Below, piece after piece: positions 3,739 through 13,203 of a stretch of DNA of 40,724 nt. Origin of the DNA: an uncultured Pelagibacteraceae bacterium (GTDB lineage Bacteria; Pseudomonadota; Alphaproteobacteria; Pelagibacterales; Pelagibacteraceae); assembly GCA_902615145.1 (NCBI GenBank), contig CACMNK010000005.1:1-40724 (forward strand). The letters are read 5' to 3'. The notes below the pieces were generated by a model that was given only the letters and a program-made list of their open reading frames with translations, did not search any database and was not told where the DNA came from. Both the position numbers and the translations under genes were made by a program. Position 1 is the first letter of the stretch; every line of letters begins with the position of its first letter.

Positions 3739-3856
3739 TGCCTGGTAATTATTGCGAAAGGGCAATACCCGATCCCATTCCGAACTCGGAAGTCAAGCCT
3801 TTCTGCGCCGATGGTACTTAGTCTTAAGACTTGGAAGAGTAGGACTTTGCCAGGCT
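3739..3856 (+). rRNA. rrf: 5S ribosomal RNA
   Basis: The 118-base gene contains the universal loop region CGATCCCATTCCGAACTCGG and the GCGCCGATGGTACT segment. Its ends pair as GCCTGG (3740-3745) with CCAGGC (3850-3855), forming helix I. No 16S, 23S or tRNA gene is adjacent: fcl lies upstream and a sugar epimerase gene nine bases downstream. That isolation matches the known SAR11 layout with a hypervariable region between 23S and 5S. No hairpin-plus-T terminator follows, so transcription probably continues into the next gene. Confidence 0.97.
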
Positions 3857-12365: not shown

Positions 12366-12560
12366 TTAAATTCTGTTTTTAAGTTTATTTAACTTCTTAA
12401 CTCTTTTAATATTCTCTTGAAGAATTCTCTTTTTTTTCTCAGAAGGTTTTTCATAAGTATTTTTTAGTTTAATTACTTTAAAAAATCCATCTCTCTGAAG
12501 TTTTCTTTTTAAAACTCTCAAAGCTTGTTCAACATTGTTATCTTTTACTTCTATTTTAAT
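12366..12560 (-). CDS. rpsU: 30S ribosomal protein S21, probable ATT start codon
   Basis: The frame encodes 64 residues: after the start come KIEVKDNNVEQALRVLKRKL, then QRDGFF and TYEKPSEKKKR. These match alphaproteobacterial S21 (MxVxVRDNNVDQAL...YEKPSEKR). No ATG, GTG or TTG lies in frame before the conserved region; the only upstream codons back to a TAA include one CTG that overlaps the ribosome-binding site. ATT at 12560-12558 aligns with the family methionine and is five bases after GGAGG (12570-12566). Rare AUU starts are known from infC, where they allow IF3-dependent autoregulation. The stop lies six bases before tRNA-fMet. Confidence 0.9.
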   Translation of the reverse strand: MKIEVKDNNVEQALRVLKRKLQRDGFFKVIKLKNTYEKPSEKKKRILQENIKRVKKLNKLKNRI

Positions 12561-12624
12561 AAATTCCTCCAGAAAACTGATTGAGTAGCACTTTTATAAT
12601 TTTATGTCTATGAATTTTATTCAT
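12556..12624 (-). CDS. Putative leader ORF overlapping the rpsU start
   Basis: This ATG-initiated frame of 22 codons (MNKIHRHKIIKVLLNQFSGG then IY) begins 12 bases after the trcR stop. Its TAA stop shares a T with the ATT start of rpsU (ATTAA). The GGAGG used by rpsU lies within it. This geometry would let terminating ribosomes reinitiate at ATT. There is no recognisable family, and the ORF could be fortuitous in AT-rich DNA; only its position makes it notable. Confidence 0.35.
   Translation of the reverse strand: MNKIHRHKIIKVLLNQFSGGIY
12566..12570 (-). promoter_or_regulatory. Strong Shine-Dalgarno site deciding the rpsU start
   Basis: GGAGG on the - strand (GGAGGA including the next base) stands five bases before ATT. 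Strong ribosome-binding sites are scarce elsewhere in this window, so its placement is good evidence that translation of S21 begins at the ATT codon. Confidence 0.75.
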
Positions 12625-12636
12625 AATTTTTGATAT

Positions 12637-13203
12637 TTATTTTAATTTCGCTTTTTCTTTTTCCTTTTTTTCTCTTTTTACTCTTCTTTCTGCTTTTTCT
12701 AATGCTTCAATCAAATCTTTTTGAGAAAAAAGATTAAGCGCCACCGGATCTTTTGGGCTTAAATTATTATAATTCCAATAACTTTTATTTCTTATTGAAG
12801 TAACTGAATTTTTTGTTATTCCAATTAATCTCGAAATTTGTGAGTCTTTTAAGATATTATGTTGTTTAATTAGCCATAGCGCTGAGTCTGGTTTGTCTTG
12901 TCTTTTTGACAGAGGGATGTATTTTTTTATTCTTTTTTCATCATTTGATATCTCAACATCTATATTTTTAATGTTTAGAGGTCTATTTTGGTCTTTGGAA
13001 GATAATTCAATCTCTTCTCTTGAGAGTTGTCCAGTTATAATAGGATTATATGCTTTTATACCTTTTGCAACTTCACCATCAGCAATACCTTGAACTTCAA
13101 CTTCATGTAGATGACAAAACTCAGCTATTTGTTTAAACGTGAGTGTCGTATTTTCAACAAGCCATAGGGCTGTGGCCATAGGCATTAATGGTGCTTCTGA
13201 CAT
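12637..13203 (-). CDS. trcR: DUF1013 family cell-cycle regulator TrcR
   Basis: This 188-residue protein starts MSEAPLMPMATALWLVENT and continues with LTFKQIAEFCHLHEVEVQGI and ADGEVAKGIKAYNPI, the conserved core of the alphaproteobacterial DUF1013 family. That family was described in Caulobacter as TrcR, an RNA polymerase-associated transcriptional regulator of the cell cycle. A second helix-turn-helix-like region is visible at DSALWLIKQHNILKDSQISR and LIGITKNSV. The C-terminus is lysine/glutamate-rich. Its ATG directly abuts the rpmE stop (TAAATG), so the two are coupled. Confidence 0.9.
   Translation of the reverse strand: MSEAPLMPMATALWLVENTTLTFKQIAEFCHLHEVEVQGIADGEVAKGIKAYNPIITGQLSREEIELSSKDQNRPLNIKNIDVEISNDEKRIKKYIPLSKRQDKPDSALWLIKQHNILKDSQISRLIGITKNSVTSIRNKSYWNYNNLSPKDPVALNLFSQKDLIEALEKAERRVKREKKEKEKAKLK

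Follow-up and report, generated by a model that had tools for sequence, protein, structure and literature searches.

The window analysed here, a 40,724-nucleotide stretch of one contig from an uncultured Pelagibacteraceae bacterium, carries rpsU, the gene for ribosomal protein bS21, on its minus strand. A Pfam search identifies the product as Ribosomal_S21 (PF01165, E 1.5e-15, 57.1 bits against a cut-off of 27), and it is the single match in the window's own genome, which is 74% complete. The features of the locus, in the order of transcription, are as follows.

12637 to 13203, minus strand: upstream gene of the TrcR family (PF06242), by Pfam
12556 to 12624, minus strand: leader ORF of 22 codons that runs across the promoter-like element, the Shine-Dalgarno sequence and the start; genus-limited
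12605 to 12610, minus strand: -35-like hexamer TAGACA, of the pattern T[AG]GAC[AT]
12582 to 12590, minus strand: extended -10-like element TGCTACTCA, with TG at 12590-12589 and the hexamer at 12587-12582
12561 to 12570, minus strand: Shine-Dalgarno (SD) sequence GGAGG with an extension toward the start codon; the window copy has -10.3 kcal/mol, the genus ATT median being -14.5
12558 to 12560, minus strand: ATT start codon of rpsU, at the place of the family methionine
12366 to 12560, minus strand: rpsU, bS21 coding sequence from ATT, 64 residues and a stop; PF01165
12283 to 12359, minus strand: tRNA-Met(CAT), probable initiator tRNA, directly downstream of rpsU

The minus strand at the rpsU start reads ...TTTTCTGGAGGAATTT ATT AAA ATA GAA GTA..., with the ATT at 12560-12558 separated by five bases from the GGAGG at 12570-12566, as an earlier sequence-only reading of this DNA had described. 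The further claim of that reading, that no ATG, GTG or TTG precedes the conserved N-terminus, holds for the window, where the first such codon in the rpsU frame is a TTG at 12521 and starting there would cost 13 residues; few other loci share this absence. A tRNA-Met (CAT) does adjoin rpsU at 12359-12283, also as described. C1/A72 ends are a criterion for initiator tRNA, and the ends of this tRNA, read by eye, fit. On the other side of rpsU, a TrcR relative was found in 123 of the 136 loci searched. Elsewhere in the assembly, a 5S rRNA lies at 3741-3855 of the window and the 16S tail on another contig (G000:C8). A special RNA structure at the rpsU start was rejected, because the predicted fold of 81 bases of the window copy is no more stable than those of shuffled sequences (z 0.49).

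The start codon was read in 136 loci of the window's genus, a nonrandom set in which the window and 75 other top matches were joined by 20 low scorers picked by hand and 40 loci taken at steps. It is ATT in 122, ATG in 8, ACG in 5 and ATC in 1, and the step sample taken separately gives 39 ATT and 1 ATG. Ten other genera of the family have ATT in 33/33 loci. Among the best 80 loci named Pelagibacteraceae or Ca. Pelagibacter ubique, which probably repeat some of the other genomes and were kept out of the 136, there are 77 ATT, 2 ATC and 1 ATG. The protein of the window matched 154 of 201 genus genomes, and misses are expected because many of these genomes are 55-90% complete. One locus counted among the ATT loci (L096, G387:C6:70200-72100) has a frame broken soon after the start, with a TAA inside the match; its promoter-like element, SD and ATT are present. 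In the sister family (f2), the frame ATA-GTT/GTC-GAA stands behind AAGGAGGG in 7/7 loci, and rpsU there probably starts at ATA.

This comparison strongly supports the proposal that AUU is the real rpsU start, across the genus and the other genera alike. A normal start in relatives at the same place, which would have spoken against it, was seen in eight ATG loci of the genus and one named ATG locus, and a sequencing error at the ATT is ruled out by its recurrence at that place in genus and named loci. No in-frame NTG lies between the upstream stop and the ATT in 7 of 128 non-AUG genus loci and 26 of 33 other-genus loci. Downstream, at least 53 of the 128 genus loci have no NTG before the stop, and a downstream start would drop conserved residues. 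In family f1 the codon at the start place can be ATG or ACG and is never ATA, Val or Leu. While ATA accounts for 344 of 910 internal Ile codons of the family's rpsU genes, single internal Ile sites are also strongly biased (at codon 9, for example, ATT 34 and ATA 3), and therefore the absence of ATA only softly supports reading this codon as a start.

To gauge the SD, energies were computed with RNAduplex against the 16S tail that the window's genome and relative G205 have, GGATTACCTCCTTTCT. A search for a CACCTCC tail pattern gave no match in seven genomes because the tail reads TTACCTCC. Every one of the 128 non-AUG genus loci has a strong SD (GGAGG in 127, GGGGG in 1), while GGAGG or AGGAG occurs in none of the eight AUG loci. 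The combination of AUG with a strong SD was not seen among the 136 genus loci, and one named AUG locus, perhaps from the same genomes, is also without an SD. Median energies in the genus are -14.5 kcal/mol for ATT (122 loci), -12.9 for ACG (5), -12.0 for ATC (1) and -1.3 for ATG (8); the ATT loci of other genera have a median of -12.4 kcal/mol (33). At -10.3 kcal/mol, the window copy falls short of the median for its genus.

As a control we took 313 ORFs of at least 150 aa from 400 kb of one relative, G012, with starts estimated from the ORFs. Their median SD energy is -2.9 kcal/mol, GGAGG precedes 6 of them and any 4-base SD core precedes 39, and only 1 of the 313 is as strong as G012 rpsU at -14.5 kcal/mol. 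By these ORFs and their estimated starts, SDs are otherwise rare in the genome, as in the Bacteroidota case discussed below. The genus ATT median also lies beyond the roughly -13 kcal/mol of that case and the window copy short of it, on a scale that ranks rpsU among G012 ORFs rather than ribosomal protein genes and uses RNAduplex rather than the method of the Bacteroidota paper.

Protein trees were poorly resolved, and a codon tree of TrcR and rpsU with seven of the eight AUG loci was used instead. It places AUG in two groups, one of them interleaved with ACG loci that keep their SD; the tree rests on two linked genes, and recombination could mimic independent AUG switches. The mutual exclusion of AUG and SD in the genus is the strongest sign of selection on the pair, and we read it as a hint. 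That the weak rpsU start itself is under selection in the genus is supported by these comparisons. The arrangement is nonetheless dispensable, because genomes with AUG and no SD exist.

Upstream of the SD lies an element that resembles a promoter. In 176/176 loci of both families, T[AG]GAC[AT] is followed after 17 bases by TA, with a TG one base before this second hexamer, and the same pattern occurs in 6 of 3520 shuffled upstream regions. The element looks like a promoter because the spacing is fixed while the spacer is free. From the end of the -10-like hexamer, which finishes in A rather than T in 165 of 176 loci, the start is 18-27 bases away in f1 and the ATA 37-39 bases away in f2. A generic consensus promoter scan did not list the element. 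A scan of 400 kb of G012 gave two occurrences of the pattern, compared with 8.3 in shuffles, and before other genes it did not exceed chance; it is therefore either special to rpsU in G012 or too narrow as a pattern, and on this count the motif was rejected as a general SAR11 promoter.

The start of rpsU also departs from AUG in the wider class. We sampled 90 alphaproteobacterial loci (30 best matches and 60 further down the list, 5 of the 90 unparsed) and assigned starts by position; where GTT, GTA or GTC stood at the family methionine place (23 loci), the preceding codon was taken as the start. So assigned, the 85 starts are GTG in 44, TTG in 13, ATG in 12, ATC in 10, ATA in 3 and CTG in 3, which makes 73 non-AUG and 57 GUG or UUG. 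An in-frame ATG lies within 15 codons upstream in 4 of the 73 non-AUG loci, 3 of them GTG loci. For the 16 ATC, ATA and CTG loci, the in-frame NTG within the same distance is absent in 9, GTG or TTG in 6 and ATG in 1. ATC-GTT/GTC/GTA stands at the rpsU start in ten loci (L152, L166, L200, L207, L223, L225, L230, L231, L241 and L242), which include GC-rich genomes and of which four have an in-frame NTG at most 15 codons upstream.

As a control, S20 of Alphaproteobacteria starts with ATG in 30/30 loci. Against a generic 16S tail, median SD energies in the class are -9.5 kcal/mol for rpsU (85) and -4.2 for S20 (24). At this level a strong SD does not exclude AUG: across the 12 AUG-start rpsU loci of Alphaproteobacteria the median SD energy is -12.2 kcal/mol. 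Outside Alphaproteobacteria, rpsU starts with ATG in 13 of 15 parsed loci, the others being 1 TTG and 1 misparse, with 5 of 20 loci unparsed. A full-text literature search, covering mostly papers free of subscription, listed no title, abstract or passage in which rpsU of SAR11 or of other Alphaproteobacteria starts at a codon other than AUG.

Weak starts are known from other translation genes. E. coli rpsT, which encodes S20, starts with UUG and is autoregulated; like SAR11 rpsU it is a small-subunit protein gene with a weak start, which in rpsT is tied to feedback, although the codon is UUG and alphaproteobacterial S20 uses AUG. E. coli infC, the gene of IF3 and likewise a translation gene, starts at AUU as SAR11 rpsU does. 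An AUU start is shared by pcnB as well, according to a title cited within PMC13009471. SAR11 rpsU is unlike infC and pcnB in encoding a ribosomal protein, in its extended SD and, probably, in having a short leader of its own, and infC of the window's genus apparently starts with GTG.

Two systems come closer. In Flavobacterium johnsoniae, ribosomes without bS21 favour rpsU, which has an extended SD (PMC9976891), and bS21 feedback in Bacteroidia involves Tyr54 of the protein. The likeness to SAR11 extends to the same gene, an SD-poor genome and, on the genus median, an extended rpsU SD near or beyond -13 kcal/mol. The Bacteroidota gene, however, starts with AUG, whereas SAR11, in the Alphaproteobacteria, has AUU, AUC, ACG or AUA and AUG variants without an SD; for SAR11 we infer the feedback. 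In Staphylococcus aureus, extended SDs direct AUU and AUA starts, with an output of about 10% of that of AUG and up to 30% for ccpN, and the authors of that study locate bS21 where an extended SD helix would be hindered (PMC13009471). The AUU of cvfC1 and the AUA of ccpN resemble SAR11 rpsU as conserved non-canonical starts directed by a conserved extended SD; they differ in being from Firmicutes, in not belonging to ribosomal-protein genes and in having been shown experimentally. Judged from its sequence, SAR11 rpsU would join the extended SD of F. johnsoniae rpsU with an AUU-class start of the S. aureus type.

Our preferred reading, to which we give a probability of about 0.58, is that SAR11 rpsU is translated by SD-driven initiation at AUU on a transcript from its own promoter, with negative feedback by bS21 as the likeliest use of the arrangement. 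Sequence comparison itself shows the AUU start, the extended SD, its exclusion with AUG in the genus and the promoter-like element; the promoter's activity, the short leader and the feedback with its sign belong to the interpretation. The gene would be transcribed from an extended -10-type promoter, giving a short leader with little beyond a pyrimidine run and the extended SD. This SD could pair over as many as ten bases with the end of 16S rRNA, its 3' tail, in a helix that ends beside the start codon and would force initiation at AUU. With a very strong SD and a very weak start, synthesis would hinge on access to the anti-SD. Subunits without bS21 could accommodate this long helix and would translate rpsU efficiently, while complete 30S subunits would translate it poorly. 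The feedback step is borrowed from Bacteroidia, and that SAR11 bS21 hides the anti-SD is an assumption made by analogy.

The most credible alternative is a fixed set-point, in which the strong SD and the weak start balance to a constant amount of S21 and nothing is sensed, AUG without an SD being an equivalent solution. The eight AUG loci without an SD, and the lack of AUG loci with a strong one, fit a model in which SD strength times start strength is all that counts. A medium SD with AUG would be a simpler way to that amount, though, and the pairing of a very strong SD with a very weak start nevertheless persists in 128 of 136 genus loci; moreover, AUG is rare at rpsU of the class and not at S20. 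We therefore regard a set-point as doubtful, if well ahead of the explanations that follow.

Rather improbable, in our judgement, is a coupling to IF3 as in infC, which is argued by analogy: IF3 would disfavour AUU, AUC, AUA and ACG, and high IF3 would lower S21. IF3 accepts GUG and UUG starts. The SAR11 non-AUG codons (ATT, ATC, ACG and probably ATA) fall outside the set of AUG, GUG and UUG, and rpsU thereby shares the AUU-class start of IF3-controlled genes of the infC type. The starts of infC itself, as they appear in 30 loci from tblastn matches read by eye, are GTG in the genus and in g4, ATT in g5, ATA in f2 and ATG in g9. The GTG of the genus and g4 sits at the upstream stop or two codons after it. 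The sister family f2 apparently uses ATA at both rpsU (L118-L124) and infC (L173, L181, L186, L189, L190, L191, L193, L194 and L196), behind strong SDs, as the coupling might predict. In genus g5 (L168, L176) infC apparently starts at ATT. Against the coupling stand the apparent GTG of infC in the window's own genus and the class, whose rpsU starts are mostly the GUG and UUG that IF3 accepts.

A related suggestion of the sequence-only reading was that S21 and tRNA-fMet could both be tied to IF3 level or to reinitiation. The adjacency of the two genes is real in the genus, where 127 of 128 loci have an initiator-tRNA arm no more than 160 bases downstream of rpsU. Of the 33 loci in other genera, every one of which uses ATT, 16 have such an arm at this range, and AUU is therefore independent of the adjacency.

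The same reading proposed that ribosomes ending at the TAA of the leader ORF reinitiate at the overlapping AUU. The 22-codon ATG ORF (12624-12556) is present and its TAA does share one base with the ATT, but this overlap is no evidence of design because ATT followed by AAA gives TAA automatically. An NTG occupies the leader start in 92 of 136 genus loci (73 ATG, 12 GTG, 7 TTG and no CTG), an excess that stands at a constant distance ahead of the -35-like hexamer. In the other genera it is found in 2 of 33 loci, all of which have the ATT rpsU start; the leader is thus not conserved wherever AUU is. Where the spacing is one base longer, the NTG occurs in 7 of 26 loci. The leader frame is open in 77 of the 79 NTG loci with the common spacing, but column shuffles within these loci give 74.9 and reach 77 in 163 of 1000 trials; its openness therefore cannot count as a sign of coding. 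Furthermore, the ORF begins upstream of the promoter-like element found at every locus, and codon conservation within it is limited to the stretches shared with this element and the SD. Reinitiation from the leader is accordingly very unlikely.

Least probable of all is that the true SAR11 start is an in-frame UUG four codons upstream, with the ATT as an internal Ile codon: a TTG does occupy that position in 119 of the 128 genus loci without AUG, but it is the junction of the T run and GGAGG, it would sit some 9 bases from the -10-like element and within the sole SD, with no further SD to serve it, the window has CTG and 11 loci a stop codon at that very place, the loci counted above have no upstream in-frame NTG whatever, and, as a soft point, the f1 codon at the ATT place is at times ATG or ACG and never ATA, Val or Leu.

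Returning to SD-driven initiation with bS21 feedback, we can propose an extension to the class, which we put forward tentatively and think more likely to be wrong than right. The class may avoid AUG at most rpsU genes to let bS21 production sense the state of the 30S platform through SD pairing, and SAR11 may have taken this further, to AUU, AUC, AUA and ACG starts behind SD helices as long as ten pairs. This would be a second, independently evolved autoregulation of bS21. Phage S21 genes would be free of this control, as their starts are ordinary AUG or UUG ones. All 57 of 57 viral S21 loci with similarity to the query have ATG (36) or TTG (21) as the in-frame NTG closest to the host start place, either at that place or up to three codons before it. 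Phage S21 and a proposed role for it are already known (PMC6375957, PMC9723584, PMC9976891).

For SAR11, the finding would be a ribosomal-protein gene with an AUU-class start that is kept across a family, and probably an order, of very abundant ocean bacteria. Gene calling is affected, as the upstream TTG invites a wrong start in the 119 genus loci that have it. Within a single genus, alleles with AUG and no SD, ACG with an SD and AUU with an SD provide natural experiments. The arrangement suggests that bS21 feedback may exist outside Bacteroidota, and it is relevant to the question of why marine phages encode an S21 of their own.
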